DNA of 64,000 nucleotides from Buxus sempervirens (Eukaryota > Streptophyta > Magnoliopsida > Buxales > Buxaceae), in contig OX387190.1 in the NCBI GenBank assembly GCA_947561395.2, positions 9,418,858 to 9,482,857 on the forward strand. Reading direction: 5' to 3'. This document shows, one piece after another, positions 5,011 to 64,000 of this stretch (positions within the stretch are counted from its first letter, which is position 1; every line of letters begins with the position of its first letter). The notes beneath the pieces are model-generated. The model was given only the letters and a program-made list of their open reading frames with translations, did no database searches and was not told the DNA's origin. A program made the translations under genes and the position numbers.

Positions 5011-5231
5011 CTATTGATGTTTGTTAAGTTTCATATAAAAATAAAAATAAAAGTAAAAGTCAAATGACAACAGAATTTCTAGCCGATATACCGTAAATTC
5101 TTGTAGTAATTAGTCAATTAAAATATTTACTACTAATACAAGGTTATTGACAAATGACAAACCCTAAGCATGTGGAGATTAATTAGTTGAATTAGTTAAT
5201 TAATTAACTAGTCAGTTAGTCATTTAGTTAA

Positions 5232-5579: not shown

Positions 5580-5588
5580 TTTAGTTAA

Positions 5589-22978: not shown

Positions 22979-23282
22979 ACTACCACCACTATCACCACAC
23001 CACTACCATTGCCTCCATCACTGCCACCACCACTACCATTTCCACCACCACCACTGCCTCCACCACCTTCACCCACCACAACCACCTCCACCCCTGCCAC
23101 CATCCACAACTGCCACACTACTACCACCTCCACCACCACCACCACCACCACTGCCGCCGCCACCAAAGCTATCACTGTCGCCGCCGCCAACAACCCCACC
23201 ACCATTGCCGCCGCCACCAACACCACCATTGACGCCGCCACCTCCACCACCATCACCACCACCACAACCATTACCATTACTG
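22979..23282 (+). repeat. Degenerate (ACC/GCC)n array, part 2
   Basis: The continuation of the array beyond the L1 insertion, richer in GCC than part 1. Confidence 0.9.
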
Positions 23283-23650
23283 TTACAAAACCGCATCTTA
23301 TTCTATTTGACATTAATTCTTATACAAATTTCTTGATGATAAACAAATATTGGAATTTGAATTATATTGAAATCAAAGTTTTAGAATATTAATTCTCTAT
23401 TACAACCAAACAAAAAATTTCAATTCAAAGAATCATAATTTAGAGAATTATAAACATGTAGATTTGTAATTCTAATTCTTTGTATCAAACATACCCTAAC
23501 AGATGAGATGAGGATTGGCAAATGATCAGATGCGGTCATAGGCCAAACTACAACATCAAATCTTGATTAATTTGAATTAGTACTGGGATTTGTGCCTTGA
23601 TTAGACCATTCCATTGAGTAGGTGGTGATAAGGAAGCCCAGATCTAAAGG

Positions 23651-27060: not shown

Positions 27061-27431
27061 GGTGGGTGAATCATGTATGTCTTGTACTTTGGTCAGTCAT
27101 TTAAAATTTTGTGTTTATCTTATTTTCTCAGTTTCTTTAATGAATATTTGTATCCAATATGCGGAAGCTTTATGCACCAAATATGACATTTTAGAGGGAA
27201 AACGAATTTTTTATTAGTCGTAAGAATTTTCGGAAAGGTTAAGATGTGTATCAAGTCTCAAAGGAACAGGATTTATTCCTACTGATTCTCCAAAAGGCCA
27301 TTGATATACTGCTCTAAAATCCATAAAGGATAAATAATTTGACAAGGAAAAAAAATAAACAAACAAAAAAAGAAGACTCCGTACAATTTCAGTTGATTAA
27401 GAAAGATAAGTAACATGAGCTTGCAACTCAC

Positions 27432-27609
27432 CTTTACAAAAAGGGTGCTAGGCGCCAATATCGAATGGGAGTCTATACCATTGAGATAAGCTTTCACCTC
27501 AGGAATGCCAGACCCCGCTGCTGCAGGGGCAATGTAAGAACAGAGGGCTCCAGCAACAGTTGCCAGCAGCAAATTGCAACCAGCATAGGCAGCAAATGCC
27601 TTGAAGAAC
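27432..27609 (-). CDS. CLC-c: CLC chloride channel/exchanger, coding exon 3 (GSGIP exon)
   Basis: Encodes FFKAFAAYAGCNLLLATVAG, then APAAAGSGIPEVKAYLNGID and LAPSTLFVK. GSGIP is the anion-selectivity motif. Serine at the second position is linked in plants to chloride preference, whereas CLC-a uses proline for nitrate. The acceptor TATAG precedes 27609 and the donor AAG/GTGAG follows 27432. The 178-nt exon joins exon 2 as NH-K-FF and ends in phase 0, matching the start of exon 4. The sequence is uninterrupted. Confidence 0.94.
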
Positions 27610-29108
27610 CTATATTAGAACCACAAATCACTACAGTAATGCAGAACTGATACAAGTTGATTTCACAGTGAAACCCATATTATAAATCATATTGTGCTAT
27701 TTTATTACCATCATCATCATCATCAATAAATAGCAGTCCATGCAAATTCGAAATCATACACAACAAATGCATCGCATCTATACACCAAAATGACTTGTGC
27801 ATTCGAAAACAAAACCGATAGTACCAGGAGTTGAAAGTTAATCAAAAAGAGAACCTAGACTGCAAGAGTGGTATCAGATGCCAATTCATATTGTGCGATA
27901 TTAATCGAGTATTGAGCATATCAGCATGAAACTCTTGCGGGATCACCACATGTACAGAGACTCAACCAATACATATGTCATATCAAGCTTTTTGGAGGAT
28001 CTAATATAGGTCATGACATCTAGAATGAAATTTTTTCAAAGTCCTTCAAAAAAAATTTTATTTTTCAGTCTATAAATCAGTTACTATATATATAGGACAA
28101 ACTTGAAACACATGTAAAGATGAAAGATTGATCAATAAAAATGCAAGGATTCATAAGAATCTGTGTTTTTATTTTTCAATTATAAAACTAATTACAACAA
28201 AAAATATTATTTTGTTTGATATCTGTAAGTCGTGGTTGAAATAACCACATAATAATATAACATCAACAAGAAAAAATTGTAACTTGGCGTATGTCAAATT
28301 GAATCAAGGTCTTTGGAGTGGATTCACAACAAACATAACCTTTATCATTTTGCACAAAAAGTAGTAGTTCTCAAACACAAATCATCTCTATAAGCAAGCA
28401 GCTGGGTGTTTTCACCATCACATTAAGTGACTATCCCTGTGGCATCCGTTAATGGCTAATCTATCAGACCAACTAACTGATTACAATTTTTAAGTGCTAA
28501 AATGTTTTTATTTTCCAAATAAAATAACTATAAGAATCGTTTTGATAGGTTGTATTCATAGGTTAGAATTAGCATATTCCTTAGAATTTATTACGCCATT
28601 ACGTAAAATATGCTTATTCTTTTTCATTTATTTTTTTCAATGATTTAGAAGGCTGTATATCATATATAAAGCTTATCTTTACATTTAAGCATGATTTCAT
28701 TAAAATTTTTGTTCACATATGGACATGTCAATTTGTTACCACATTGTCAGAAATCATGAATGTCGATAGATGCTATGCAATAATGTGCATCAAATTTGGA
28801 GATTAACTTTATATCCAAATGATAAGTCTCTAAAAAATTTTCATGTGCTATCAATGTTTCTGTTATTTTCTATGTTATTTCCAAGTGTTTGCTATGTTTC
28901 CTAAAACTTTTTTACTTTCTTAAGGACAGTGACCCTTCCTCAAAATGATACCTTGAACCTTTTTCTTTTAGTTAGAATTGTTGCCAAGCTATATTTTGAA
29001 CCGAAAAGATACTCTCAAACAGAAACAATATCACCAATTACTTGAAGTCCATGTTTCATCAGAATGAGAATTTGAGATAGTAATTACAGTGGTGACAGTT
29101 TTGCTTAC
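27610..29108. other. CLC intron 2
   Basis: A 1.5 kb AT-rich intron with a short (CAT)n run near 27711-27724. No transposon or coding signature was recognised; it is the only short intron of this gene within the window. Confidence 0.7.
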
Positions 29109-29309
29109 TTATGATTTAGCATGAGATCACTAGTCAACAGTAGTTTAAATCCTGCAATATTCTCAACTGCAAGGTTATTAAAGAAGCCAACAAGCCCTGT
29201 ACCAAGCCCTATAAGAAGTGCAAGCGTCCACTTTAGGACAATGTACTGAAATATCTCAACTTTTTTCCTCGATCTCCAGTCCTGCTTGAATAGATCATTT
29301 TCAACAATC
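29109..29309 (-). CDS. CLC-c: CLC chloride channel/exchanger, coding exon 2
   Basis: Encodes IVENDLFKQDWRSRKKVEIF, then YIVLKWTLALLIGLGTGLVG, FFNNLAVENIAGFKLLL and LMLNH. This is the first transmembrane helix and the well-conserved NLAVENIAGFK loop of plant CLCs. The acceptor TATAG is before 29309; the donor AA/GTAAGC is after 29109. The split codon with the first coding exon restores ...LDYEIVEN, exactly as in plant CLC-c. Length is 201 nt; no defects seen. Confidence 0.94.
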
Positions 29310-42849: not shown

Positions 42850-45720
42850 AGTTGTGAAAACGCCTAGGCAATGCCAGGCAATAGACCTGCCCGTAGCCTA
42901 GGCGACAATTTTTTCATTTCAAAATAATCAAAATATATTCATCATCCATTGTAGATGGAAGTATCAAAAATCAAAAAGATCTAAAGTATCAAAAGGTCTA
43001 GATGCCATCATCCAATGTAAAATCCATATCAGTTTCTTGAAGCAAGCCTCCTGCAATCCCATCACCCCCAAGTCCCCGATTATGATTAGCTTCATCTCCA
43101 TCTTCATTATCATCCGACTCTAAGTATGTATTTTCTTCCTCGCCTTCAGTTTCATCAGAGTCGGTCCATTGGGGCTCTTCGTTTTCTTCCTCTCTTTCAA
43201 AATGTCTACTTGAACTTCTTCGAGTGCTACTACTAGTTGCACTTGACATGTTGCGTTGTGGTCTTGACGGTCCATCAATAGCCCCCACAGCAATATCAAC
43301 GTCTAACCAACTAAGCCCTCCATGGACAACGTCTTCCGATGGCTCTTTTCCTGTGAACCACTCACTAGAGTCATCAATATCATCAAAGCAAATGGGGTCA
43401 TAGGCTTTAGGATTTTCCTTCCTTGTTAAGAATCTCTCTCGTAGTCGCTGATTGTATTGGACGAAGACAAGATCATTCAGCCGCTTCTGTTCTAGCCTAT
43501 TCCTCTTCTTTGTATGAATCTTTACAAAAAAAATAAATAAAAAAAAATTTACTAAAGAATCTCAAATTTTAATAAAACTTCAAATTAAAGATACAAATGA
43601 GATATATATTTTCATTCACAAATTCAAAAGTACTCCAATTGCATTCACAACTCGAAGAAGTGCATGTAAGCCCTAGGATCCGAAGTGCTAGACGTCGAAG
43701 TTCCGGGGTATTGGCTCCATAGGTATCCCACCATTTAACTTCAAAAAGTATTAAATAATGAGTAAAGGATCAGTTGTTAATTGTCACAAATAAAATTCAA
43801 ATTTAAAAGCATTACAATGAACTTACTTGGCTGCTTCTTCTCTCTTTGCCTTATTGCCATATCTTTTCCAAATAGGTCCCTACAGTTTTTGTAAGTATCC
43901 ATTTGTCTAGAGATCTTATCTTGTAACTCTTCATCTGTAACCATCCTCTCTAAACAATCAAGAAAACCCACTTCAAACTTTCCAACAGAATCATCTGAGA
44001 TGTCTTTAGCTTTAAAATACAAGCTTGGATTGAGAAAGAAGCCTGCTACATGTAGTAGCTGATTGAGTTGCTCTTCCCATCTCTTATCAACAATAGTCAA
44101 AATAGGTTTGTAATCTCTTTCTTTGTGTCCAAAAAAGCTTTAGATTTGATCTCTTGCTTGCTCCATTGCAGTATAAAGATAACCCATTGGTGGCTTCTCA
44201 TCACCATCAACTAATCTCAAAACTTGTACAAGTGGATATGAAGCTTTTAGACAATAACTAATACCTCTCCAAAATATTGTTGATAAAACAATATTTGCAA
44301 CTCTTTTCCCATCTTTTTTTTTTTTTTTTTGCCCACTTACTATTATTCCAATCAGAGGAAACAAATAAAGCTCTCAAGGCTTGTTTATGTGTAAACAAAC
44401 TTTGAAGATTCAAGAAAGCAGTAGTAAACCTTGTGACTGCTATCCTTACTAGGTCATTTCCTATCTTGGCTCTCATATGATTAAGTAAGAGAGGATGCTT
44501 GTACATGAAAGAAGTGACTGATCGGGCCTTGGCAATGATAACCTTTGTTCCAATAAGATTCCTAATATCTTCTAATATGAGATCTAAGCAATGAGCAGCA
44601 CAAGGTGTCCAAAACAGTTGTTTTCTCCTATCTATCAATCTTCTACCTATAAAAAGGCATTATAAATATAAGTACAAGTAAGATAATACACTTGAATTCA
44701 AGTAAAAGATGAAATAAAATAAAAAATAGACACCCAAATTACTCGCAATAACATAAGCAGCATTGTTATCTGTAGCAACTTGAACCACGTGCTCTTCTCC
44801 AACTTTTTCTATCACATTATCAAGTACTTCAAACAAGTACTGTGCATCATGTACTTTACTAGAAGCATCAATTGATTTCAAGAAATATGTCCCTTCGGAA
44901 CAATTCACTAAGAAGTTGATTAAACTTCGTGTCCTCTTATCAGTCCAACCATCAAACATGATTGTGCATTCATACTTTTTCCAAGCTGTTTGATAAACTT
45001 GAAAAAGATCCTTGATTCTACCAACCTCAATCTTAAAGAAGTGGTTCTCTCAATTCATGAAATGATGGAGGTCGATAACCTGGTCCAAATTGACCGATTG
45101 CTTCCACTATTACTTGAAAACCTCTTAATTTCACTGTATTGAATGAATTCTAGCTTGGTAAAACCATCGAACTACATATTGATTTACTTTTTACCGATCC
45201 TCCTTTTTGTATCTATTATTAATGGTGGTCTGAACTGTATTTCCTTTAGCCCTCTCTGCAATTACTTCTTCAGAATTCCTTCTCAAAAAGCTATCCATGG
45301 GCCCCCTTTCACGTGGCTTTTTTTTAGTCACTTGACTCACTTGTGTGGACTTCTCCTTGCCTGTCCGTTTTCTCTTTTCTACAATACATTCCACTTCAGC
45401 ATCTTCACTTTCTTCAACATTAATTTCCCAAGGATTTTGGCTAAAAGAATCATCAAGCAAGTCATTTTGGATTCTTTTATTACTTGCCATATGATCCGAT
45501 AATTCTTTAATTATCTCCACAGATGCCTTTGGGCATTTCTTGACATTCCTATACCCACCAATCAAATGTTGCTTTTGTTTATAAATACCTCCATTTGTTA
45601 TAGCCCCACATAACTCACATAGAATTTTGTTCTTATCACTAACAATAGGCCAAAAGGAATACTTCCACGCTGGATCCTTAGAATTGGCTTTTGGCTTCGA
45701 GCTACCGGAAGATGACATTT
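42850..45720 (-). pseudogene. hAT transposase pseudogene of a second family (hAT-3)
   Basis: Start ATG at 45718: MSSSGSSKPKANSKDPAWKY, BED finger ILCELCGAITNGG...KKC (C-C-H-C), nuclear-type basic linker KRKRTGKEKS and KKKPRERG, then DUF659 with MFDGWTDKRTRSLINF (first Asp), VVQVATDNNAAY (second Asp), WTPCAAHCLDLILE, helical part ALFVSSDWNNSKW, and a dimerisation block SCECNWSTF (Glu). The acidic tail EEENEEPQWTDSDETEGEEE ends near 42998. Several stops and frameshifts break it. The left end near 42850 (TAGTTGTGAAAACGCC) may be terminal; the right end was not found. It differs from hAT-1/2 in tail and sequence. Confidence 0.88.
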
Positions 45721-45887
45721 CTTCACATAGACAAACACCAAACACTTTTATTAAGTAATAAAAAAAATGTAGAAGTTTAGAAAAGAAAAACAATAAAGGT
45801 GTTCTTAACTGTTAAAAGACAGGTGTTCACACATCAAATTTAAAATCACCAGAAAAATACAGGTGTTCTTAACTGTTAAAACAATAA

Positions 45888-46405: not shown

Positions 46406-47506
46406 GAACCCCTAATAGACTCTCTTTTGCCCATGTTTTGTTTCTGCTATTGTTATTTTCACTCCTATATTTTCTGTTTTGGGATGTTTCGGACTGAAGG
46501 ATGTCCTACTTCATTGTTTTCTCTATTCTTTCTACTGTTCTGCTCCGTCATGAACAGTCCCTATACTATCCCCTATTTACAAATGCAATTCTTACTTCAC
46601 TGATCAAAAATTGTATATGGACAACTATTAAAAATAAAATAAAAATTTCAAAAAAATGAAAATAGAAATAAATTTTTCAAATTGGACCACTATATTCTCT
46701 TGGATCTCTTTCATGTTATATGGAATTATTTGACTTATATTATTATTTTCATTTTGTATCTCTTTGATTATGCCATAGTATCTTACCATATTAGCTTAGA
46801 CATAAGATACATGCATCCATTTTCATGTTTTATTTATTCTAGTTCCATGTTATTGTCATGTTTAGACCTCTATAAAATTTCACACTAGAATTGAATCATT
46901 GTGGATTAAGAACATGTGTGGGGAACTTTAATGCCTAACTTTCCTATAATAATTACTTTCATGCTTCAAGTGTCTTTAGTATACCACCAAATAATGACTA
47001 TTTGAAAGGGTACAATTCCCCTAAGCAATAGATTGAAGCCAAAAATTGAATTAATATGCTAAGAAGAAAAACGAAACAAATAATAATAAGAAAAGAAGGC
47101 ATGAGGCTGGAACATTAATCCTTGTATGTGGCTATGGATTTCAACTTTTCAATTTACAAAGTGAACCTATTCAATAATATGAATATTAAACTGATGTGAC
47201 CACACTATGATCAAACTACTGGCTAGTCAGATTCTTTAATTCTTTTATATGGCCAACAAAAACATTTCTGCCAATTAGTTTCTAGAAATGAAATTTCAGG
47301 AAATAACCATCCCGTAGTTACTCCATTAACTTCACAATCATTGTGAAGGAATACAAACAACTAATCAAGTTGGGGATACTTACTGAAGCTAAAATTAATA
47401 TCACCTATACTAATCTAAGATATATCCCTTGAAATTATAAGGGAGGATCATTATGCCCAATTCAAATGGAACTAGTAGTTGACACACACGCTAAGAAGGT
47501 GCTTAC
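46406..47506. other. CLC intron 1, start-proximal part
   Basis: AT-rich; no gene or element recognised. Confidence 0.55.
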
Positions 47507-47694
47507 TCATAATCAAGGCTCTCAATGGAATAGACATTGGCACCAACAATAGCAATCTGGGAGGTGGTGTTTATCCGCTTCCTGAGTAATGGCTCTCTAA
47601 GTGTGCTTTTTTCTGATATCTCAGAAACATTCCTATCAATCTTCCCATCATACAATCCCTCACTCTCTAAGTCATTCACATCTCCACGATCCAT
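47507..47694 (-). CDS. CLC-c: CLC chloride channel/exchanger, first coding exon with start codon
   Basis: Plant CLC proteins move chloride or nitrate across organelle membranes, mostly the tonoplast, as channels or anion/proton exchangers. This exon holds the cytosolic N-terminus: MDRGDVNDLE, then an acidic dileucine-type EPLLRKR, and NTTSQIAIVGANV and IESLDY, the signature that precedes helix B in plant CLCs. The ATG at 47694 sits in AGCAGATGG with G at +4. Protein length and start fit CLC-c of Arabidopsis as I recall it (about 780 residues; 276 codons are seen in the four exons here). The donor is GA/GTAAGC at 47507. The following intron is 18.2 kb and full of transposons. Codons are open and in phase through all four exons, so the gene is probably functional. 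Confidence 0.93.
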
Positions 47695-47812
47695 CTGCTC
47701 ACTCTTTTATATGGTTCTTCAGGTGTTACTTTTCCCTGTATTCTCTCAGTTGGATTCAGTGTCTCAGATGGTTCCCCTTCTACTTGCAGCCTTCAGTCTC
47801 CATATTTTACAC
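47695..47812 (-). promoter_or_regulatory. CLC 5' UTR part of exon 2, with short upstream ORF
   Basis: The acceptor TTCATTGCAG ends before 47812, placing a 5' UTR intron upstream. Within this leader an ATG near 47804 opens a seven-codon reading frame METEGCK and a stop, well before the CLC start. Such upstream frames often lower translation; here this is inference. Confidence 0.6.
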
Positions 47813-49589
47813 CTGCAATGAACACATAAAACAAATAGAAGTAATCCTTCTGAAAAGAATGTGCTGAGTTGCATGGTTTTGGATACTAGCATCAAAATCC
47901 AGTTTGGATAAAGGGTGTTGAATTCAGCAAATCCAACTAATTATGATTTGTTTCATGCCTAATTAAGATATTTGTTTAAATATCATAGAAGAAAATTTAA
48001 TGGGCTAAAAAATATTGCATCATTTGAAATGCTTCATATATTAGTATTCCTCTAAAAGTTTTTTGCATGGTTCTTGACAAGAAATATCGGCAAATAAAGG
48101 TGCAAGTTTTCAGTAGAAATCAAAAACTAAAACCACGCACAGGGGATAATAATGAACTCATCCCATATAACATTAAAACAAAGGTTCGCTTATTACAGGC
48201 GACATCTCAAATTCATTCCTCTTCATCGAATCTCATAATAAATGATCATGTTTTCAAATCCTTTCTATTGTTTTTACATTCAACAAAAATTTTAATATTC
48301 AAGGAAATACTTGTATAAGATAAAACTGAAAGAATCATATACAAAAAGTAAGACAAATAAACAATAGCAACACAAAAACATATCATATGGGATAAAATTC
48401 CAAATCATAAAACTATAAAATGGTCATCAGTTCTTACATCCAACTTCATATTTCGCTAAGCACATCCCATTTTATTTAAAATCAATTTGAAATATGTGCA
48501 GATAACCAACTTGAAAACATTATATAGAGCAAAGACAATTATACCTACGAAATGCTAAACCACTCAAAAAAACAATCTTTTCTACTGTGTCCCTATGTCT
48601 AACGCATTTTTTCTCTTATACCCCTTCAAATTGGAAATAATTATATAAATTCCAGGACAAAGAAATCCACATTCAAAATCCATAAAGATAAGACTACTAT
48701 TGTCATTCAAGTTAATTTTGGGTGTCTTAAAGCATGCTAAGATTTAATATGAAGGCATTTTTTCAAGATTCAATCCATCTCATCAAGATGGTTAGATCAT
48801 AGCATGTCATTCTTGATGTATTGACAGACCTTCACAACTTGTTGTAGATTAGATTATAGCATGCAGCATGCATGCATAATAAAATCCCAGTGAGTGTCAC
48901 GCACACAAAAAATATGGACACACACACACAAAATAATGAACAAAATAAAGTGTAGAATACAAGGACATTTTGATCATATGAATTTCTAAAGTAACAGAAA
49001 GACAGGCATTTTGATGTTAGTGGTGTAGAGCAGTAAATGAGATTATATTATATATGAAAGGATACAGCAAGTGCAGACACATTGTATGGCATCATTAAAT
49101 TCAAAAACCAGGTGCCGATGCACTATAATGTATAATAGAATTCAAAAATGGTGGAGAAGGTAAAGTTGCAAATTCCCTTGTTGCCTTCCCCCAATTCCAT
49201 AGAGTTCTAAATTTTATTTATGGCACTATCCAAAGTTTCTTTGTCCTTGAAGATTTTCAGGTTTCTTTCTTCCAAATACGCCATCAGACAAAATTGTTGC
49301 ACCATCATGTTAGTGCTGTATGGTAGTAGGCAGTTTTACATCTCCATATGCATTATACAGATAGTATTCTTCCTCCTTCCCCCATGACCATACACTAATG
49401 CCGTAAATGTGGCACCGGGAAAAATTTTTCCAAACTTTCTCATAGAAAATATCTCTATTATTAACAAAAATTCCCTTATGTCACTAAAAATATCACCAAT
49501 AATATCAAAAATATTTTCACTTTTCAAATTATCAAACAGAAGATACAATAATAACATAATGTATCATCTCAAACTAATTGAGCTTAGAA
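47813..49589. other. CLC 5' UTR intron, left part
   Basis: AT-rich with a short CA run near 48897-48935. No gene or clear element. Confidence 0.5.
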
Positions 49590-50227
49590 GTATGGATCTG
49601 ATTCATCCAAACCAATCAATCCAAGATCTTAAATTTAGTTGGATTTTGAGTATCCAAGTGAATTCTTACCAAGGACATTTAGATTACTATTTACCTTCTT
49701 TTAACCCTCTTGGATCCTTCAACGAATATCCCATTACACCTCATGGCTGCCTTCCTTTGCCTTGCATGCCCAAAACATTTCCTTTATTTCATCTCTTATT
49801 TTTGTAACACCTAAGTACTCTCTAAGATGTTCAACCCTTAACTTCCCACACATCCATCTCAATATCTTCATCCCAAAAATACTCATTCTATGCATATTTT
49901 GCTTCTTTGTTACCCAATTCTATTTCATATATCATAGCACACTTAACGGCTGTCCTACAAAATTTTCCTTTCTAGTTTGAATGTAACATGCCAATCACAT
50001 AGCACTTTAGAAGCACCTTTACACTTAAGCAATCCATCTGTAATTCCATGTATAACATCCTAATTAATACTGCCCTCTTCATATACAATTGCTCCAAGAT
50101 AACAAAACTGATTGCTTTCGAGAATGACCTAGTTATAAATTCTTATCAATGCTTTGCTTTTACTAAAACTGAATCCATATTTTTTTAGTTCTAAATTCTT
50201 ATAATTTTTACTAAACTGAAATCCACA

Positions 50228-50773
50228 TTTTTTATGAATAATGAGATATATTAAAAAGAGAAGGATAAAGGTACATAGGCGGTAAAGGTATGTGGGATAA
50301 TCCCCTACAACCCAACCCAAACTGCAGGAACTATCAATCAAGTTACTAATCATGACCAAGGTTTATCGTTTCAGTGCCGCTGCCGCCCAAGGTACGAAAT
50401 TAAATTTCACCAACGTGCTGCTGAAACGCTGGAAAATTGAAAGGAACAAAAAAAATGGGGTTTTTTGGATTTTTGGGAAATTTTGTTCCTAATTCGAGCA
50501 AAATTTCACTATATGCCACCCAAAAAAATTATTTAAAAAAAAAAAAAGTGGTTCCCCCTGTTTCACCCCATTTCGCTCAGCACACCACTGCGTTTCACCG
50601 ATGTGCCACTAAAATTTGCCAAAAACGCAATCTAGAGATTTTTACCTTGTGAAATGCATTGCAATTGGGTGTTGTGGCAAAATTTCGAGAAACACTAATC
50701 ATGACCACCCTAAAGCACTACATACACTAAAATCTCATGTCCAATAATTCCACCTCACTTCCCATCTTCCATA
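50228..50773 (-). mobile_element. L1 3'-end insertion carrying a hAT MITE
   Basis: Begins with T6 and ATGAATAATGAGATATATT (L1 3' end in complement), flanked by a 15-bp duplication AAACTG(A/C)AATCCACA with one mismatch (50213-50227, 50774-50788). Without the MITE it is about 200 bp. RTE sequence resumes on both sides. Confidence 0.8.
50357..50697 (+). mobile_element. Non-autonomous hAT element (MITE) of the CAAGGTTT family
   Basis: A perfect 8-bp duplication ATCATGAC flanks it (50349-50356, 50698-50705). The left end CAAGGTTTATCG pairs with a weak right end (complement TAGTGTTTCTCG), similar to the left end of hAT-2. The interior has GCGTTTC, GAAATTTCA and GTGCC words typical of hAT-1 subterminal DNA. 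341 bp, no coding. Confidence 0.85.
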
Positions 50774-50890
50774 AAACTGCAATCCACATAGTCAGAATTA
50801 GTTATAATTATTTTAAAACCTTTTTGATTCCAAGTATCTCTCGATAATTCCAATTTTGCATTGAACATGACCGCAACTCTCTAAATCTTA

Positions 50891-52662
50891 TTCATTAAAT
50901 ATGGATTTTATGCAATATTTTGGAATATTCAAATGTACTTCGCTCTAAATTAGATCACAACAATGTTATATTAGATAGGCTTACTTTTCACAAATTTTTT
51001 TCAATTTTTTCTTCAACTTTTTTCCTACTATTTTGATGACAACTTGCCATATTAAATTAGCAACAAGGCTTGAAACTACGATCTTAAGCTTAGTGATTGT
51101 GCCTTTTTTTTTATTAGATCTGAGGTCTTCTTTTTCTTCATTTATTCCTCCATGATTGTTTTTCTTTTCAATATCTATGTAGATTATTTAAATAATTAGC
51201 ACAAAGTCCTAAGTTTTTGTTAAAATTGAAAGTTAGTTAATTTTTTTTTTTTTCACAATAGTATTCTAATCTTAACATTCAATTGGACAATAGTTTAAAC
51301 CAGTGTGATTTAGTCATAATATCTATGTCTTTGTTCCAAAAGTTTGTAACAGAAATTCATTCCTACAGTGGGTTCATTGGATTCTCTATGGTAGAAGAAG
51401 AAGCTCCTAGATGATGGAAATTTTGATAAAATTAAAAATAAAAGATGGTATATCAACTTTTACTTTCATTCTTTGTCTTCATACTTTATCTGTGAATTTC
51501 TTTATTTGTCAATTTTTTGCGCGTAAATTTATAATTATAACAATAACAACACAAAGTGCCTTACCCCTTCCCAACTAGATGGGATCAAAAAATATGATTG
51601 GTTAATTATTGTTAAAAGCAGATCATAAAAATTTTAAAAAAAATAAATGGTTTTCTACTACCTTATGATATGTTGTATCTAAGGTGACACTGTATAAGGC
51701 CACATGCTCTTTCAAGTTTCAAATTATCCTTGTGCTTGCTGCTATTTGAATGATTCTATCACTTTGATTAATCTCTTGATCTTGTAATCCAAAATAATAA
51801 ACAGTGATGATCCTTACACATAAAAGTACTTAGTAAAATACATGCAGAGTAAGATAGTGGTACATGGGACACAAATAATGCTTCTTCACAACTTTGATGT
51901 GGGGCAAACAAACTAGTTCTGTTCCATTTATCAAAATCAAAATCATAGAGTCCAGATAAAGAGAGATAGAGAAAGACCTACAGAAGATTCCGAAGTCTGG
52001 ATCTCTTTCTTCTTTCTTCACTTGTGAGTTTCAGTTCCTTCAAGAGTTCCTTTAACAACCAGAAAAAAAAACGCAAAATCAACAGCAAAGTCAAAGACAA
52101 ATGTAGAAAAAAGAATTATTTTGGGAAAGATATATGGAGATCCTTAAACTCATCAAAGACAAATTTTTGAAATTCTAGTTTCCATTCCGTCGAGCGTTCT
52201 CGTTGAATTTCTGGGTATTTTTCTTCAGTAACAGTCAAATAATTAGTTTTTATCAAACGTTGGAGACCGTTTTTAAATCTATATATCGGTATTTCTGAGT
52301 TTTCATTCAAACAAAATTTTAACATGAAACTAACTAAAAATGCTTAAGTTTTAGCCAGAAATTGGCTCCACTCGAACCGCAAAACAGAATCACAAGCCAA
52401 AAATAGGAAGAAGCTGTGGTATAGTGGATCCAGAAACGATTCTGACCTTCGATTCTCCAACTAAAAGCGAAGAAACTACAACCAGAAAATTTAAATTTTT
52501 CCCACGACTAAAGAAGCTTTTCCTTTCGGAATCTAATTCTTACATTACACCAGAACGAACAAAACAAAGGAGTACCAAATCAAGATATCTGAAACACCTC
52601 CCCAAACTTCCATCCATTTCAGAACAGTACGAGCTCGATTAGAATCTGAAGGCCATATATAC
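50891..52662. other. CLC 5' UTR intron, right part
   Basis: Mostly AT-rich. A short stretch at 51538-51595 (ACAACACAAAGTGCCTTACC then CCAACTAGATGGGATC) matches the terminal repeat region of RTE LINEs. A 72-codon plus-strand frame at 52424-52642 has no recognisable family and is not called. Confidence 0.5.
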
Positions 52663-52990
52663 CTTGAAACTTAATTTCTACACTCCGTTTCGATTGATGA
52701 TCGGATCAGCTCAAAACCTTGTGTTGATAAAGACGAATCTGTAGAAATCTTCAGGACTTCTTCTGATCCACAAGCCAAAAAAACAAAAAAAGTAAATTTT
52801 AGAGACGCAATGGGAAAGATAAAGGCGAGGTTTGGGCTGATCTGTATCCGTGACTGGGCCGAGAACAGGCTGGATAAGATCTTGGCCAGAGCGTAACGCG
52901 AAAGACCGACCAATGAAGACTGGGTCTATGTTGGGACGAAGAGAAGAAAAACGAGCTCACATCTCCTGTGACGAGTTTAAATTTTATGGC
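52663..52990 (-). promoter_or_regulatory. Probable CLC 5' UTR exon 1
   Basis: On the minus strand a GC-richer leader with CT-rich words runs from about 52990 to a good donor AAGTTTCAAG/GTATAT at 52663. No long ORF. It would splice to the acceptor at 47812. The transcription start is inferred from the TATA-like box upstream; transcript data would settle it. Confidence 0.5.
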
Positions 52991-53018
52991 CCCACGGACT
53001 CCAAAACGCCCCCACAGA

Positions 53019-53028
53019 CTTTAAATAG
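53019..53028 (-). promoter_or_regulatory. TATA-like box of the CLC gene
   Basis: The minus strand reads CTATTTAAAG about 30 bp ahead of the inferred start. Less than 110 bp upstream of it the first transposon duplication begins (53126), so little native upstream sequence remains. Confidence 0.4.
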
Positions 53029-53639
53029 AGGAGTGGAATGAAGTGACCAAAACGCTAACGCCGTTTTCGATTTAAAAAGAAGAAAAAGAATGCAACATCT
53101 GAATTTTGAAGGCAGGCTGGCAGCAATTGGAGCCAAGGTTTACAGTTTCGGCGGCACGCCGCAAAGCCAAGGTTTACAGTCAAAATTTCGGTTTTTGTAG
53201 CCCCAGCGATGCGTTTCGCTGGGAGAAATCGTCAAGTTGCATCGTTGACGAAATTTCAACGATTTTGCGATGAAACGGGACGGCGTGCCGTGCGAAACGG
53301 GCGAAACAAAGAAAAAAAAATGCAAATTTTTTAATTTTTTGGGAAAATTAATTTTTAGTGGTACTTTATCAAATTATTTAAGATTTAGTCAGCAAAGTTT
53401 TGAGTTTTAACTTTTAATGCACTTTTATCAACATAATTAATTTTTAATACTATTTAACTGTTACAGATAAATTCTTCCAAAAATACCCTTATACAACTTA
53501 CTTCCGAGACTTGTACAGGCCATTTTAGACTTACACAAGTAATAAAATGACTTGTACCCAAGGTTTGCCGTTTCGTATTTCGGTGCCTTAGCGGCACGAA
53601 ATACCAAATCGAAACCCTCTCCCATGCGTTTCGCTGGGG

Positions 53640-53855
53640 TGCCGGCGAAACTCAGCGAAATTTCGCTGAGTTTCGCAAAATCCCAGCGAAACGCAGGGAG
53701 AATATAAATTTTTTTGGCCTCTCAGCGATTCGCTGAGGTGCCAGCGAAACGCAGCGAAATTTCGCTGCGTTTCGCGTAACCCCAGCGAGGCACCTCACCT
53801 TAAAAAGGTGAGGTGCCGTCGAGATTTCGCCAGAACTGGCAAAATCTCGACGAAC
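53640..53855 (+). repeat. Cluster of palindromes at the left end of hAT-1
   Basis: Two perfect 32-bp palindromes centred on GCGAAATTTCGC (53645-53676 and 53744-53775), a short one at 53721-53737, a hairpin with 13-bp arms and 3-base loop (53789-53817) and another with 16-bp arms carrying one mismatch (53817-53850). Their position, 85-300 bp inside the terminus, is where hAT transposases usually have subterminal binding sites. Confidence 0.92.
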
Positions 53856-54098
53856 AGAAGAAGGGGGTTTCGAAAACCCCCAAATTTCAATTTTTTTTTT
53901 GAATTTCTTCAAATTAGCTGTTCCATTCTCTTTCAAATCGAAGATGGAGAAGGATTGAAGCTTGGGATTGCAATCTCCATCAGTTTTTGTGTGATTTGAA
54001 GCCTTGAAGAGTGTAAAATTGAGGTAATCATGTTTTTTCCCTTTTTTATGCTTGTAATTAACTTAGATTGTACTGATTTTTTTATATGTTATGTAACA

Positions 54099-55140
54099 AC
54101 ACCCGATCTATCGATGGGTGTTGTTACTTTTTTTTTTCTCCAAAAATTAGTATTTTTTAATTTATTTGACATGAAAAATCATTTAAAAATCATTTTTAAT
54201 TATTTTTTTAATACGAAAATCATTAATTATTTATTTAAAAATAACATATTAATAATATAATGAGAATGTTTTATAGTATTAGACTATTAGTATTACACTA
54301 TTACTATTACAAATTTACAATAACAATAATAATTATTTATTTATTTAATACGAAAATCATTAAAAATTTTGAAAAAATTATTAAAAAATGAAAAAAAATT
54401 AGTAAAAATATGGATGAAAATATAAAATATTATATGAAGCATGGATACCTAATTTATAGATGGGAGTGCACAATTTTATTTTTTGTAAAAAAGGAATAAT
54501 TAATATTTATTTAATCCGAAAATCATTTAAAAATTAAAAAAATATGAAAAAAGTTAGTAAAAATATGAATTATATTTATGTGAAGCGTGGACACTCAATT
54601 TATAGATGGGCGTGCAAACTTTTATTTTTTTGTAAAAAATGAATAAATAATTGTTTATTTAATCCGAAAATCATTAAAAATTTAAAAAAATTTAAGAAAA
54701 TATGAAAAAAATTAGTAAAAATATGGATTATATTTATGTGAAGCGTGGACACTCAATTTATAGATGGGCGTGCAAACTTTTATTTTTTTGTAAAAAATGA
54801 ATAAATAATTGTTTATTTAATCCGAAAATCATTAAAAAATTAAAAAATTTTAAGAAAATATGAAAAAAAATTAGTAAAAATATGGATTATATTTATGTGA
54901 AGCGTGGACACTCAATTTATAGATGGGCGTGCAAACTTTTATTTTTTTGTAAAAAATGAATAAATAATTGTTTATTTAATCCGAAAATCATTAAAAAATT
55001 AAAAAAATTTTAAGAAAATATGAAAAAAATTAGTAAAAATATGGATTATATTTATGTGAAGTGTGGACACCCAATTTTTAGATGGGCGTGCAAACTTTTA
55101 TTTTTTTAGTTGATTATTTTCTAGATGGGTATGCTAAAGT
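54099..55140 (+). repeat. Leader array of about 159-bp units with palindromic cores in hAT-1
   Basis: Cores of the form ACAC(C/T)CAATTTATAGATGGG(C/T)GTG; the GATGGG word occurs at 54113, 54459, 54605, 54763, 54922 and 55081, with a short extra one at 55134. The last four steps are 146, 158, 159 and 159 bp. The units between are nearly identical and AT-rich (AAATCATTAAAAA, GAAAAAAATTAG). Confidence 0.92.
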
Positions 55141-55238
55141 GATACTTTGTTTAATTGTTTGTAAATTGGAAATTTGGAATTGACACTTCGACAGGTAACC
55201 TACTGTTTTCAGGTGATTAGTTAGCGGCCTAGCGGGTG

Positions 55239-58200
55239 ATGGCATCAGGATCTGGTGGTGGTGATGGTGCCGAGACGAGTGGACGTAAAGTAGATATTGG
55301 ATGGCAGCATGGTACCCGCTATCAGGGAGACAGAAATAAGACAGTATGTAATTACTGTGGTCATGTATTCAAGGGGGGAGGTGTATCCAGACTGAAGATG
55401 CATCTGGCAGGTGGTGCCAAGGACGTCAAGGATTGTAATAAAGTGCCACCTGCAGTTAAAAAGCAGATGTGTGAGCACCTACAGATTGGTGTGAAAAGCA
55501 GAAAAACGAAGCATATTATAGAGGACGAGATCAGACGGAGACTAGCAGAGCCTCCACGGGTAGCTGAGGATGATGATGATTTTGTCTACCCTAGCGGGAT
55601 CGACACAGAGGCTGAGAGGGCCCAGTATAGAGCAGCACACCATGCATCCCTGGAGTCAGATTTTGAGCGGAGAGAGATGCAGAGACATGGATTTGAGAGA
55701 GGCGGTCATTCTGGGGCTGGTGGGTCGGCTTCTTTGAGGCGTTCTCATTCTACGAGAATGCCTGATTATCCTGTGGACCCTGACACACATAGATCATCAG
55801 ATGCGAAGCAGAAGAGGCTGAAAGATTCTTGGAGTGGAGGATCAGTTAGAAAGAAGATGGGTAAGTTCATATCTCGGTTCTTCTTATTCAACCATATCCC
55901 TGCACATGCAGCTTCCTCTCCGCATTTTAAGAGTATGGTTGACGTTATTCAGGAGTCTGGGGTTGGAGTCCTACCTCCTACACCGAAAGAGATCATGGGG
56001 GTTTATTTGGATGATGAAGAGAAAGAGATGTTGACATTTATTAAATCTTTGCGTCCATATTGGGAGAGATTCGGGGTTTCAATTATGTGTGATGGTTGGA
56101 CAGGCCCTACGAAGCTGTCAATCATCAACTTTATGGTCTATTGTAGAGGCAAGGCCGTCTTTTTGAAGTCTGTAGATGCCTCAGATAAAATCAAGGATTC
56201 AGAGTACATCTTTGGTTTACTAGAGGAGGTGATCAGAGAGGTTGGGATACATCTCGTTGTACAGATTGTTACAGACAATGGGAGTGCCTTTAAGAAGGCT
56301 GGTCAAATGATACAGGCGAAGTACCCCATATACTGGACCCCTTGTGCTGCACATTGTATAGACCTGATGTTAGAGGCCATTGGGAAGAGGAAGAGGGTGA
56401 AGAAGACACTACGAGATGCTCGGAAGTTGACTACATTTATTTATAATCATAATTATGTGTTAGCGAAGATGAGAACAGTATGTCATGGAGATATAATCAG
56501 GCCGGGGATTACTAGATTTGGTACAAATTATATTTCCTTGGATAGCATGCTCCGACACAAGCAAGGATTGAGAACCTTATTTACTAGTGAGGATTGGGGT
56601 GCTTGCTCTCATAGTCGCACTGAGAAGGGGAGGGAAGTAGAGGATATCGTTCTTCGTGGCAGCTTTTGGGATGGTGTGAAGGAAGTTGTCGATATATTGG
56701 AGCCCATTTACAGGGTGCTACGGATTGTTGATACAGATTCATACCCGACCCTCGGTTCCATCTATGAGAGCATGAGGGTGATGAAAGAACAAGTTCAAAT
56801 TGCCGCACAGTCGTCCTACCAGTGGGTCCACAAGATCATTGATGATCGTTGGATTAAATCGATGGATCATCCCATACTTTTGGCAGGTAATTAATTTATA
56901 ATATTAATTAAGGTTTGTTGATTTTTTTTATACTTATACTTCTTTGATAATGCTAAATTGTTTATTAATTCTCATTTTCTTTTCAAACACAATAACAGCA
57001 CATTACTTTAACCCAAAATATCACTACAAGGACAACCTTGGGATGCGCGCAGATATGTGGACAGCTGTGCTGATGGTTTATTCCCACCTCGATCCCAATT
57101 CTACCGGGCAGGCAGATTTCGGCGATGAGGTAAATTCTATATAAATAATAAATAAGTGCTCTATCAATTGTAATTTGGAATCTTTTCCTCAATTTTTACT
57201 AAATTCTGAACATGCTCTTGCAGTTGATCAAGTTTAGAGATGCAATGGAATCATTTGGAATGACGACTTGCCATTGCCTTGCGGAGTACGATGATGCCAT
57301 GTATGTAATTTACTACATTTTGGTAAATCATTTAGAATTTCTAAATTTATTTTATGCTTATTGAAAATCATTACACGTTTCAGGCGAGTGGTGGGCCATG
57401 TACGGAGCTTGTGCTCCCACTGTGTCGAAGCTTGCGTATCGGATTCTCGCTCAGACTGCATCCTCATCTGCTTGCGAGCGTAACTGGAGCACCTTTGCGT
57501 TGATTCATACAAAGCAAAGGAACCGGCTGGCCTATCAGAAGCTACAAAAGCTCGTGTTTTGTCACTACAACATGAGATTACGAGCGAAACAGCTGGAGAT
57601 CGAGACACAGCGTAGTAGTGCATATGTTGACGACCCTCTGGACATCCTATGCAGCACCCGGATTGATGAAGACAACCCATTCTCAGAATGGGTGAGGACT
57701 GCGGAGTTAGACGAGCCTAATGGTGGGCCAAGTTCAGTCGTTGCTCGCGCCGCAGCAGAGATGGGGATTGATGTTGATGCTGTTATGGAGGAAGAGAGGG
57801 GATTTCCTTCTGTTGACTTTTTTGATAGAGATACCAGCGTAGTGCCCCCTTCAGTTTCTACAGCAGCAGCGACGCCCTCAGTCCCAGTTCAATCAGTTGA
57901 GGGTACAGAGTTTGACTCCGAGGATGGAGATAGTGGGGATGGTGGAGGGTCTGATGATGATGACGACGATGATGGTGGAGATGATCATCAGGGAGGTGGA
58001 GGACAATCACATAGGCCAGGGGTTAGTCCTTTCACTGGGGAGGCAGTGTACACACATGCCACTCAGGACACCCACCATGGAGGGCGATACAGTCAGGGTG
58101 ATCAGTCAGATCCAGAGCCACGTACTTTTCAGAGGCGGGGTAAGGGGAAGGAGAGGATTGGTGCCCAGGACGAGGATGAGATGTCTCGATCGTTTATGAG

Positions 58201-58714
58201 TATGGACATGGAGGGATCTAGCAGTACATCTTCACGTAGTTATGGGGATCAGAGTGGGCAGTATGGAGGATATGCATATCCATATCCTGGGCAGTTTCAC
58301 ACATCTGACAACTATGGGTTATTTGATTTTCCCTCATATCCAGTTGCACCAGCTCCATATCCAGCTGCATACGGATATGGGTATGTCCCAGTGCCAGTGC
58401 CAGTGCCAGTCCCAGCTATCCCATATCCATATGGTTATTATCCTCCACCAGTCGTAGTAGAGGAGGAGGAGGAGGAGGAAGAGGAAGAAGATGAGGATGC
58501 GGGTGTTATTATTATGAGGGAGTATTATGATGAGTGTCCTCCTGTGGGCTTTATTGTGGATTTAGATCAGGATGAGTATGAGGAGGTTGTGCGTCGTTAC
58601 AGAAGTCAGTACGCAGGGCGCACGTCATGGAGGCGATATGTTCACATGCTTGAGAGACGACGACAGCAACAACATCAGCATTTCCAGCCTTCTAGACATT
58701 CTACTTCTTATTGA
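55239..58714 (+). CDS. hAT transposase, spliced, with long C-terminal extension
   Basis: Likely exons are 55239-56886, 56999-57129, 57224-57304 and 57389-58714, giving about 1,061 residues, long for a hAT protein. I start at ATG 55239, just after an intron-like acceptor. Domains in order: BED zinc finger (C37, C40, H55, C66); FERREMQRHGF linker; DUF659 catalytic part with D285 (CDGWT) and D346 (VTDNGS), PCAAHC (C369-C373); helical region; NPKYHYKDNLG; dimerisation block SSSACERNWSTF whose Glu (codon 57476-57478) completes the D-D-E set. A tail follows: Asp/Gly-rich, then Tyr/Pro-rich with a PVPVPVPVP run, a ten-Glu run (58461-58498) and a conserved end EYEEVVRRYRSQYAGRTSW. The exon 3/4 junction needs GTAATT with an acceptor 5 nt beyond the stronger TTTCAG; using the stronger sites shifts the frame. 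Otherwise open throughout. Confidence 0.88.
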
Positions 58715-59621
58715 TCTTTGTAGTTTGTACTTTGTAATCTTGTGACTCTTGTCTCTTATCTCTTGACTCTCTTGTAGACTTCTACTTTGTATTTTGCATT
58801 TTTTGCAATTTGTCTTTTTAATTTTTATGATTATTAATCTATGTGTCTATGAGGCTATGACTTTGTTTTACGCATGTAAGTATGTAACACATGTTACAAA
58901 GTGTGATGTAATGTGCTTACAGTTGTAGCCTTGTAATTGTTTATGTTCATGTGTTTGTATTTGACTATTTGTTCATAAATTAGATCAAATACTTATTTAT
59001 TCTATCTATTTTTGCATATAAATTGTATAAAATCATGTCTATTATGTTATTTTAGCTTAATTATGTTTTTTATTTTTAAAACAGGCATTTCGTCGGCGTG
59101 CTGCCAATTTCGGCGAAATGGCCCTTCTGACAGTTTATTTTCATCTTTTTTAATCAAAAAAGGCGTTTCGGCGGCGTGCCGCCGATTTTGCCAAAAATGC
59201 TGTTTCGAGCCATTTCATCGGAATTTCAACGAAATTTCGTCAGAAATTCGTTTCGGCCGCCTACCGGCGCACCCCAAATCACCAAAAAGTCGATCCTTGC
59301 TTGTACCATGAATAAGTGATTTGTATAAGTCATTTGGATAAGTGATGTAAGGGCATTCTTGGAATAGTTGATTTGTAATAGTTAAATAACACTAAAAATT
59401 AATTATTTTGATAAAGGTGTACTAAAAGTTAAAACTCAAAACTTTGCCGACTAAATCTTAAATAATTTGATAAAGTACCACTAAAAATTAACTTTCCCAA
59501 ATTTTTTAGCGAAACGGGCAGCGTGCCAACGAAATTTCACCAAAATCCAAAAAAACCTAATTTTTTCCTTTTTTTTGCCCATTTAAAATTTTCCGGCGTG
59601 CCACCGAAACTTAAAACCTTG

Positions 59622-60346
59622 ATTGGAGCAAATGGTCAAGTCTTATTTTCAAACAATTTATCAATACCAGCCCCAATGGAACAGGATGGAGCTCAATGGT
59701 TTAATACCGCAGAAAATTACTGTAGCTCAAAATGCTTTGATAGCCCACATTCCACCCTCATCTGAAATATGGAAGGCTATCCAAATTCTTGGTCACCTCA
59801 AATCTCCTGGTCCTGATGGGTACCAGGGAATATTCTACAAAACTTATTGGGAGACCGTTAATTCCAAGGTTATTCAAGATGTTCAAGAATTTTTCAAGTC
59901 TGGCACTCTTCCTCAAAAGGTGAATCACACTTACATCTCTCTTATTCCAAAGACACCTCATCCTCATACTTTAAAAGACTATAGGCCTATCAGTTTATGC
60001 AATTTCTTGTACAAAGTTATCTCAAAAATTCTGGTCAACAGAATTAGGCCTCTCTTGTCTAATATTATATCTCCACACCAATCTGCTTTTGTGCCTAACA
60101 GATCAATCCAGGACAACATCCTCATTAATCATGAGGTGTTTCATCGGTTCAAGAAGAAGAGGAAAAGAAAAACAAAACCAAAAGGTAAGACAGCTTTAAG
60201 TGCAAATAGAGGTATGTTCACGCTTAAATTAGATTTCTCTCAGGCATATGACAGATTAAGCTGGTCTTTCCTTCAATCTACGTTGTATGCTCATGGTTTT
60301 AATGCGGCTGTGGTTGCCTTGATAATGGAATGTGTTACATCTGTGA
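59622..60346 (+). mobile_element. L1 LINE, reverse transcriptase part 1
   Basis: The open frame carries HLKSPGPDGYQGIFYKTYWE, YISLIPKTPHPHTLKDYRPI, SLCNFLYKVISKILVNR, HQSAFVPNRSIQDNI and LDFSQAYDRLSW (motif A). It runs without stops to the solo LTR that interrupts it at 60347. On the left the L1 continues for an unknown short distance across the hAT nest (to about 53085), since the ATTGGAGC duplication joins the two sides. Confidence 0.9.
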
Positions 60347-60449
60347 TGTAAGCACCTCATTTTTGCGCTCCCGAAAGAGCCGGAAATGCAAACCCTAAAT
60401 AGAAAGTCAAACCATAAGGGATGAAAATTTGACCTTTTGATCAAGTGAT

Positions 60450-60850
60450 AATTGGCCACCTTGCTTTATCTAAGTGGATAGGGAATCCCGACACGACTCC
60501 AACGCAACTGGGTTCGCAGGAATCGGAGTCCAGATAAAGGTTATGCGGGCGGCCAAACTTAAGGAAGAGCCGAGAGTTGACTTTTCCTCGAATTCCGTGC
60601 CAAGTACCTTGCTCTATACCAGTGGATAGGGAATCCCGACACGACTCCAATGCAACTGGGTTCGCAGGAATCGAAGTCCAGATAAAGGTTCTAAGGGCAG
60701 TCAAACTTAAGAGAAGGCCAAAAGTTGACTTTTCCTCGAACACTGTGCCAAGTGTTTAGCTCTATGTCATTAAATAGAGGGCTCCGATACGAGTTTAACG
60801 CAATTGAGTTTGCTCAAATCGGAGTTCGGATGAAGGAGATATGATCTGTC
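60450..60850 (+). repeat. Three tandem units of about 148 bp in LTR-D
   Basis: AGTGGATAGGGAATCCCGAC recurs at 60473 and 60621, with a more diverged third copy near 60767. Each unit contains a GGTTCGCAGGAATCG-like word and ends with GTTGACTTTTCCTCGAA-like sequence. Confidence 0.88.
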
Positions 60851-61053
60851 GAAGCTTCCGAGCAGCAAAGCTGGAAGCTGCACACGTGGCGCAAGAACTG
60901 CACACGTGGCGACAAACACAGCAAAATATCTCAGGGACTAAATCTTAAATATCAAAAATTCGTACGGGCGATCCGTAGATATCCAAAAGTGTCAAATCGG
61001 TCAAATCGGTCGAATCGGTCAAGTCGAAGGGCAAATCCGTAATTTTTCGATTT

Positions 61054-61300
61054 GTATCCGGTCAACTATACCGGATACACTGGCTCCCCTTCATATCCGG
61101 ACTTGAAGGCCGGATATAAGAAGATTCTCGCGCGAGATCCGCACCGATCGCCCGACAAATTCGCGGCGGCATTAATTTTCTGAATGATTATGTTTTGTAT
61201 CCGGCATTGAAGACTGGATACAAAGAGGCTTCTGTGTAACCGGCCATGAAGGTCGGATATGAAGGGCACTTAGTGTATCCGGCCTGAGTTGCCGGATACA
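61054..61300 (+). repeat. Five TATCCGG...CCGGATA hairpins in LTR-D
   Basis: Units such as TATCCGGACTTGAAGGCCGG lie at about 61054, 61094, 61197, 61237 and 61275; each has arms of 6-9 bp and a short loop. Three more related hairpins lie at 62155-62260 beyond the TATA box. Confidence 0.88.
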
Positions 61301-63328
61301 TTAAGTTGCCTATAAAAAGGAAACAGTAGCCTGATTTCCGGGGTTGGCTTTCTTTTGGCTGTTTCCATCTCTTCTCCCCCACTGCACCTGGTCCGAAACC
61401 TCCCACTTTAACCCCTCCTTGTACCCTAAGTCCCCCAAGTCCCACCTAAAGGCCATCCTACCCCTCCCCACTCCTTTCCTCCACACTTGGCAAACTTGAA
61501 GGAGAGGAAGAAGCTGCTGTTGCTGTGGGAAGGTGCTGCTCCGGCCTGTGTGCCTGCTTCAAGGAGAAGACTCCACACTTCAAGGGGCTTCAAAACCCCA
61601 AGGTATTGTTCCTTGGCATGTTTTAATCAACATATATTAAAATGAGCATCTCTCGAGCATGATATAATATTTTTTGTCAAAGTATGTTTCACATGGCTTA
61701 TTTTGGTTATTTTGTTTGCATGGAGGAGCATGTTCCTCCATTTTGATCATCTATCTAATGTAACCCCATGTAATTCCCCCCATTATCCCTTCTCTTATTC
61801 GTTTGCTTCATTCATTACCATGCTCATGATGTTTGGTTTTAATCAACTTTGAAGGTTGGTTTTAACATACTTTCAAGCCCACGAAATATGCATGCACATG
61901 TATATGGAAGTCCCATTTGCATGCTCCCTTTACGTGCTAACTTAGATGATTTTCGTGCCCCATGAGGCCCGTCCAAGTGGTTTGGGTGTTGTTGATGGAA
62001 GGAGTCACATGAGGAGACCAAGAGATGAGGTGATCCCTCATCTCCAGCACCAACGTGGGCTCACACAGGAGCCCACATAATCCCTGGAACATCCCAAGAA
62101 GCATAAAAACCCAACCCCACTGCCAAAAATCCGAAAACAGGCTTCTGTGCATTGATCCGGCAACTCAGGCCGGATCAACATAAGCCTGCGTGTAGCCGGC
62201 AATAGAGGCCGGATACACAGAGACCCATGTGTAACCGGCATCTCAGGCCGGCTACACTGCCAGAATGTTGTTTTTGCCATTTTTGTGATTTTGTGCAATA
62301 TTTTGAATTGTTTGATTAAATCCGGGCGAACCAGTAGGGTTTCCGGGTCACCCGGAAACCCAAAATGGGCCATGGACCGACCCGGTCCAAATTGATTTCC
62401 GGTGGGCCTTCCAACGGGGCCCACCAAGCCCGACAAACCCATTTCTGCTAAATAAAGATAAAATCAATCCATTTGAGTGGGTCATACCATTGGGGGCCCA
62501 CCCAAGCCCAATTTTGAAGCATCTTGATCTAGACTTAGATGTGGTTTGGCCGAGACCATGGGCAGGGCCTGTCGGGCCCACTAAGCCCATTAAACCAAAC
62601 AAGATTAGGGTTTTCAAACCCTAAGTCAGGAAATCTTGGGTTTTCAAGCCCAAGCCCAGGTAGAAGGCCCCAAGCCCAACACTTGGCCATTTTGACACAG
62701 ATAAGCAAGATAATCAAAACTACTTGGCAACCAACTGTGGGGCCCACTCAAGAGCCCACAAACAATCCCGGCCCACTTGTGCATAGAAATCACTTAAATA
62801 ATCAAACGGGAATTTAAATAAAATCAATCCACTTAAACCAAAGCCCAAAGGGTCTCTCAGGGTTAGATTGAGGCCCACCAAGGGACATGTGGGCTCAACC
62901 AAGCCCACCAAGGAATCCGCGGGCCTTCCAACGGGGCCCGCCCATGCAGACTCATCTCACTTTAAGCTAAAGAAGATAAAATCAAGTAAAGGGACCCACA
63001 CCACTTTGGCGGTCCCGCCAGACTTAATCAAATTGAATGTTGGAATAGGAATCGGGTGAGTGAGAGACCAGAGTTGACTCAAACCAGGGAGACCTATGGG
63101 ACCCGTCATGTGACGAGGTGGACTGGGGTGTCTACAGACTTCCCCAGACCGCAACCGAGAACTTACTTAAAATCTCTAAAGCCGCAGACCAAGCCTTAGT
63201 AGAAGAACTTAGGCACCCAGGTGTCTGCCTGCACCCCATCAGGCAGTGGCGACTCCAAACAAATCCCGAGGCACGCATCGCTTTGTGTGCGCCTCGTCAT
63301 GTGACCGAAATCGGGTGCGCACATGTGA

Positions 63329-64000
63329 CATATAGTGTTTTACTGAATGGTACGCCCGTGGGGAATTTCCCTGCTTCGTGTGGTGTCAGACAAGGTGATC
63401 GCCTCTCTCCCTATCTATCTATCTATCTTATGCCAACAAGTTTTATCTCTTGCTATCTGTCGTGCTCAATCTGATGGGAGATTTCAGGGTATTACTTTGA
63501 GAAAGGGTGGGATGTCCTTGAATCATCTAATGTATGCCGATGATGTATTTATTTATGGCCACACTTCTGAGCGCGAGGCACACCCTTTGAGTAGATTGCT
63601 ACACCAATATTTCATAGAATCTAGTCAGGTCATTAACAAAGACAAATCGGCCTTATTTTTCAGCAGCAATACAACCACTCAAAGAAAAGTGAAGATCTGT
63701 TCAATGTTGGGGATTCAAGGCAAAAAACGAGTGGATAAATACCTTGGCTTACTGATCTTGGCAAGAAGACCTAAGGCTAAAGACTATGAGGAGCTGCTCA
63801 ACAAGATCTCGGCTCGCTTGGCTGGGTGGAAATCTCTCCTATTGAACCAAATGGGTAAAATTGTTTTGATTAATTCTATCATTTCTTCCCAACCAATGCA
63901 TTACATGAACTGCTTCTCACTCCCTCAGGACACTGTAAGTAAGATTGATGGTATGACTCGAGGTTTTTTCTGGAAGAAAAATAAGGATGACAGTCGGGCA
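63329..64000 (+). mobile_element. L1 LINE, reverse transcriptase part 2
   Basis: Resumes directly with YSVLLNGTPVGNFPASCGVR and QGDRLSPYL (motif B). A (CTAT)5 run at 63409-63428 shifts the frame. The next frame has MYADDVFIYG (motif C at 63533-63544), then DKYLGLLILARRPKAKDYEE, ARLAGWKSLLLNQMGKIVLI and MTRGFFWKKNKDD, running off the window. A recent-looking copy apart from the frame shift and the solo LTR. Confidence 0.92.

Follow-up and report, generated by a model that had tools for sequence, protein, structure and literature searches.

How did three DNA transposons come to lie one inside another at a single position in the genome of Buxus sempervirens, and how much of the order of their arrival can be read from the way in which they are nested? 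The locus lies in a 64,000-nt stretch of contig OX387190.1 (hereafter the window), within which all comparisons between elements were made. We find that a short outer element of the hAT superfamily encloses a Mutator-type miniature inverted-repeat transposable element (MITE), which in turn encloses a long hAT element with a transposase gene, each with its own ends and its own target-site duplication (TSD). We suggest, with a probability of about 0.93, that this stack was built by successive cut-and-paste insertions, because the three sets of ends are flush with duplications and because every kind of element in it has an independent relative in the window. The three pairs of duplications proposed by an earlier, sequence-only reading of this DNA were recovered exactly where that reading had placed them, with the inverted ends flush against them, and its view of three separate elements (hAT, Mutator-type MITE and hAT, in that nesting order) is supported by the results that follow.

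According to one survey, hAT elements produce 8-bp TSDs and carry terminal inverted repeats (TIRs) of 5–27 bp, Mutator elements have long TIRs, possibly exceeding 300 bp, and TSDs of 7–12 bp, and MITEs are mostly shorter than 500 bp (PMC10741241). The outermost layer runs from 53134 to 59621 on the plus strand, between copies of ATTGGAGC at 53126–53133 and 59622–59629 that agree at 8/8 positions. It measures 6488 bp as found, and shrinks to 321 bp when the middle element is taken out along with one copy of the middle TSD; the emptied element is noncoding and of the size usual for MITEs. Its ends are of the CAAGG type and match at 28 of 32 bp, and its left end resembles the left end of a coding element elsewhere in the window, hAT-2 (77% over 82 columns; 0 of 500 shuffles as good). 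Judged by the 8-bp TSD, the CAAGG-type ends and this left-end match, the outer element is a member of the hAT superfamily. Within its left end (53134–53180) CAAGGTTTACAGT occurs twice, 34 bp apart, as if the end had undergone a short tandem duplication.

The middle layer occupies 53341–59498 and is 409 bp long after removal of the inner hAT and one copy of the inner TSD, again noncoding and within the MITE size range. It is bounded by TAATTTTTT at 53332–53340 and AAATTTTTT at 59499–59507 (8/9 matching). Its arms, at 53341–53500 (plus strand) and 59339–59498 (minus strand), agree at 141 of 160 positions without gaps (0.88), compared with a mean of 0.33 and a maximum of 0.49 in 2000 Markov controls. 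By the length of its TIRs and the size of its TSD, both of which (long TIRs, a TSD of about 9 bp) it shares with the Mutator-type MITEs described in PMC10741241, we classify this element as Mutator-type.

The innermost layer, 5741 bp long, extends from 53559 to 59299 on the plus strand with the ends CAAGGTTT and CAAGGATC, and is flanked at 53551–53558 and 59300–59307 by copies of CTTGTACC that are identical over 8/8 positions. Exon 1 of its transposase gene encodes a BED zinc finger (zf-BED, 2.3e-6) and a DUF659 domain (3.5e-48), and the last exon encodes the hAT dimerisation region (PF05699, 3.7e-11). The flush 8-bp TSD, the short inverted ends and the hAT dimerisation domain place this element, as far as sequence features can, in the hAT superfamily.

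The three layers all have independent relatives in the same window, one further relative being found within the 64 kb for each of the two MITE-size elements (middle and outer). That of the middle element, at 5232–5579, is 348 bp long, contains no hAT and lies between copies of TTTAGTTAA at 5223–5231 and 5580–5588 (9/9); since AGTTAA-like words are abundant in its surroundings, where 9/9 matches occur in 11 of 37,442 local pairs, this TSD is less improbable than nine random bases would be. The two halves of the middle element find their counterparts in it in the same order, with 0 of 500 shuffles reaching either score. Its two arms share 84% identity with each other and 67–70% with the arms of the middle element, and it is thus a member of the family and not a recent copy. 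A profile made from these four arms recovered those same four in the window, as it was bound to, with no other match above the inclusion threshold. The relative of the outer element, unbroken and 341 bp long, lies on the minus strand at 50357–50697 with ATCATGAC on both sides. Parts of the left and right halves of the outer element align, in reverse complement, to positions 29–139 and 211–272 of this short hAT-type element (0 of 500 shuffles in each case), whereas in the opposite orientation the scores are reached by 22 and 14 of 500 shuffles. Its own ends are weak (2/5 of the first bases, 8/12 matching), and since its direct repeat extends to 12 bp (ACTAATCATGAC) the position given for its right end may be off by a few bases.

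The relative of the inner layer is hAT-2 (15793–20780, plus strand, 4988 bp), a whole but decayed element, which has TSDs of CCTAGGAT at 15785–15792 and 20781–20788, lies within a minus-strand L1 and carries a transposase with stops. The two transposases are about 69% identical in DNA over their best stretch (1058 columns). Over 1006 codons the proportions of synonymous and nonsynonymous differences (pS and pN) are 0.738 and 0.300, with 6 stops in hAT-2; since synonymous change is near saturation, this comparison only suggests constraint on the transposase in the past.

Might the duplications themselves be products of chance or of the assembly? A third plus-strand copy of ATTGGAGC lies at 56696 in the window, and one of CTTGTACC at 61418, and the weight of the argument therefore rests on their position flush against inverted ends and not on their rarity. 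Elements of the hAT type typically begin and end with [CT]A[AG]NG...CN[CT]T[AG]; the whole window was scanned for exact 8-bp duplications flush with such ends, together with 100 Markov-1 control sequences. Requiring at least 8 of 12 terminal bases to match gave 5 candidates, against a control mean of 0.16 (maximum 2), and requiring 7 of 12 also gave 5, against a mean of 0.48 (maximum 3). The candidates are the outer layer, the inner layer, hAT-2, the short element at 50357–50697, and an unverified one at 26971–29235 (2265 bp, TSD GGACAATG, TAAAG ends), a candidate hAT-type element that could itself be due to chance. Considering this excess over the controls, and considering that the relatives have TSDs of their own, we regard chance or artefact as a very improbable source of the duplications. 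Equally improbable is the proposal that there is no separate middle layer and that the long inverted repeats belong to the inner hAT, or to a foldback hAT, as their symmetry around the inner element and the imperfection of the 9-bp TSD might be taken to indicate. Related arms in the same order make up the free 348-bp element, which has a 9/9 TSD and no hAT, and the arm profile has no match inside hAT-2 up to E 10. The sequence-only reading had accepted that it would be wrong if the long arms always went with the inner hAT; within the window they do not, and on the strength of the free MITE we reject a single element of which the arms are part.

Some observations do weigh against the reading of three successive insertions. 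The inner ends agree over CAAGG (5/5) and at 6/8 positions and yet at only 8 of the first 12, so that they are weak beyond 5 bp. The middle TSD is the weakest item of the stack, with one mismatch and runs of A/T, and matches of at least 8/9 are found in 31 of 22,885 local pairs. The right end of the outer element has only a short, weak match to that of hAT-2 (2 of 500 shuffles reach the score), and no clear alignment is obtained between the ends of hAT-2 and the inner ends (scores reached by 11 and 107 of 500 shuffles) despite the relatedness of the transposases.

The sequence-only reading took the outer element for a probable relative of the inner one; it is indeed hAT-like and has CAAGG ends and exact 15-mers in common with the inner element, as well as a 33-nt match at 79% (E ~3e-4), among the at most three matches listed for each pair of outer element, inner element and relatives, but it is closer to hAT-2 and to the element at 50357–50697. 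A more specific proposal, that the outer element arose from the inner hAT by deletion and is still close to it, is unsupported, as shuffles reach the end-alignment scores in all four pairings (9, 6, 107 and 22 of 500). We think it quite improbable that the stack is a compound transposon carrying itself, with the inner transposase acting both on the outer CAAGG ends and on its own. If it were, the 6488-bp whole, or the mixed-end segments 53134–59299 and 53559–59621, could move, with the Mutator-type MITE as a passenger. Both hAT layers have the same orientation (judged from the resemblance between the outer left end and hAT-2), and consequently mixed-end pairing would give compound excision and not the chromosome breakage linked with nested Ds elements.

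Returning to the stack as a series of cut-and-paste insertions, the order of events may be envisaged as follows. A short nonautonomous hAT would first have entered the ATTGGAGC site, where an L1 fragment has its left edge; a Mutator-type MITE would then have entered the A+T-rich middle of that outer element; and an autonomous-looking hAT would finally have entered the middle of the MITE. At each step a staggered cut by the respective transposase, followed by repair, would have left duplications of 8, 9 and 8 bp. The earlier claim that this order can be read exactly has to be narrowed: which element entered which is given by the nesting, with DNA in or next to the L1 fragment as the recipient of the outer element, but stepwise arrival at this particular site does not follow from it, since a filled container can later move as a unit, and the order is to that extent partial. 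The outer hAT or the MITE may already have held its guest when it moved, so that two or three layers were delivered in one event. The sequence is compatible with this, the outer ends are still good (28/32), and the TSDs give no ranking of the layers by age; dating by TSD decay was rejected, because the values (outer 8/8, middle 8/9, inner 8/8) do not track the depth of nesting. Large cargo is usually a hindrance to transposition, and the free relatives at 5232–5579 and 50357–50697 are without comparable cargo. We thus consider pre-loaded arrival unlikely and infer that each layer came to this site in an event of its own.

The transposase gene of the inner element (55239–58714, plus strand) is modelled with 4 coding exons and introns at 56887–56998, 57130–57223 and 57305–57388, which is one of four open models with GT–AG introns, of 1058–1067 aa, obtained from GT–AG combinations searched in set ranges. 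All four models use the AG at 57388 for the third intron; TTTCAG, five bases upstream and in the searched range, gives no open frame. Since the third intron depends on that AG and not on the usual-looking TTTCAG, intactness of the reading frame is likely but not certain, and a one-base lesion is possible. The transposase presumably works. When exon 1, with its BED and DUF659 domains, was compared with collections of prokaryote and virus contigs, there were 99 and 7 pattern matches and no confirmed relative, a result that is uninformative for a plant element; among solved structures exon 1 had no match up to E 10. Upstream of the start codon lies a tandem array of 4.4 copies of a 159-bp unit (54430–55107, plus strand), and an internal array of this sort may be a seed of satellite DNA. 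A+T-rich sequence related to this array is present in hAT-2 at about 16150–16600, in the same leader position. At the left of the inner element (53600–53880, plus strand) subterminal hairpins are dense, with a DNA fold of -105 kcal/mol (z -15.3; matched by 0 of 200 shuffles). Comparison with Rfam gave no matches at gathering scores.

The sequence-only reading had the whole nest inside an L1. On the right this stands: an ORF2 fragment at 59623–60346 (plus strand) encodes an N-terminal portion of the reverse transcriptase (RVT_1 positions 1–99, 2.8e-15), and its continuation at 63324–64000 (plus strand) corresponds to RVT_1 positions 126–202 (E 9.1e-5; 22.7 bits, under the curated cut-off of 29.6). 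The RVT_1 family extends beyond elements lacking long terminal repeats (LTRs), and the label L1 was given by reading. On the left the claim is not supported. The 6.1 kb at 47001–53133 had no Pfam family at E 0.1 in 3/3 forward frames (the reverse frames were not scanned), a test that is not exhaustive, as the stretch just upstream of a reverse transcriptase may have no Pfam domain; and the 40 codons upstream in the L1 frame contain three stops. Given these two observations, the reading we prefer is of an L1 fragment whose truncation lies at the outer insertion or a little to its left.

The same L1 carries a second insertion to the right of the stack, which was absent from the layers of the sequence-only reading. 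It is 2977 bp long (60347–63323), of the form TG...CA, with the ends TGTAAGCACC...GGTGCGCACA and a TSD of TGTGA (5/5) at 60342–60346 and 63324–63328. When it is removed, the L1 frame continues past the junction for about 40 residues and then meets a stop. Since self-comparison of 60348–63323 revealed no terminal direct repeat, the insertion would be either a solo LTR or a noncoding element, and is probably a solo LTR. The nesting gives no timing of its insertion relative to the stack. A 148-bp tandem repeat lies near its left end.

Around hAT-2, the second L1 (minus strand) was detected on the right side at 20926–21517 by tblastn with the first L1. On the left side it is an L1 by reading only, the joined frame continuing into a putative FADD-type motif. 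Near this second L1, at 22300–23320, is a long stretch rich in GGT/GGC-type trinucleotides. A third and more distant transposase with DUF659 and hAT-dimer regions is scattered over several frames of the minus strand at 43000–45793.

The stack is real and ordinary in kind, nested transposons being common in plants. In one study, 191 of 530 candidate coding Mutator-like elements (MULEs) of maize (36%) and 195 of 476 of rice (41%) had nested insertions (PMC3903597). These cases resemble the present one in that transposons lie inside transposons; the stack differs in consisting wholly of DNA transposons with their ends kept and in having a long open transposase innermost. With the Ac/Ds system of maize, as described in PMC3260210, it has in common 8-bp TSDs, short inverted ends and a coding element with short nonautonomous relatives; it differs in its CAAGG termini, its BED/DUF659-type transposase and the Mutator-type MITE between the hAT layers. 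The same paper has nested Ds-type elements as the rarer kind, and the hAT-in-hAT aspect is therefore of some interest. The inference of insertion order from nesting, made here by hand, is automated in REANNOTATE (PMC2672092) and does not differ in principle. A literature search, of partial coverage and hence no proof of absence, returned no paper joining nested MITE, hAT and MULE.

Our understanding of transposition is unchanged by this locus. Its value is that of a clean worked example: every layer has ends and a TSD, and free relatives stand in the same 64 kb. It also shows where a BED/DUF659 hAT with an open transposase begins and ends. The stack could thus provide relative timing for three transposon families, and a set of markers for related species.

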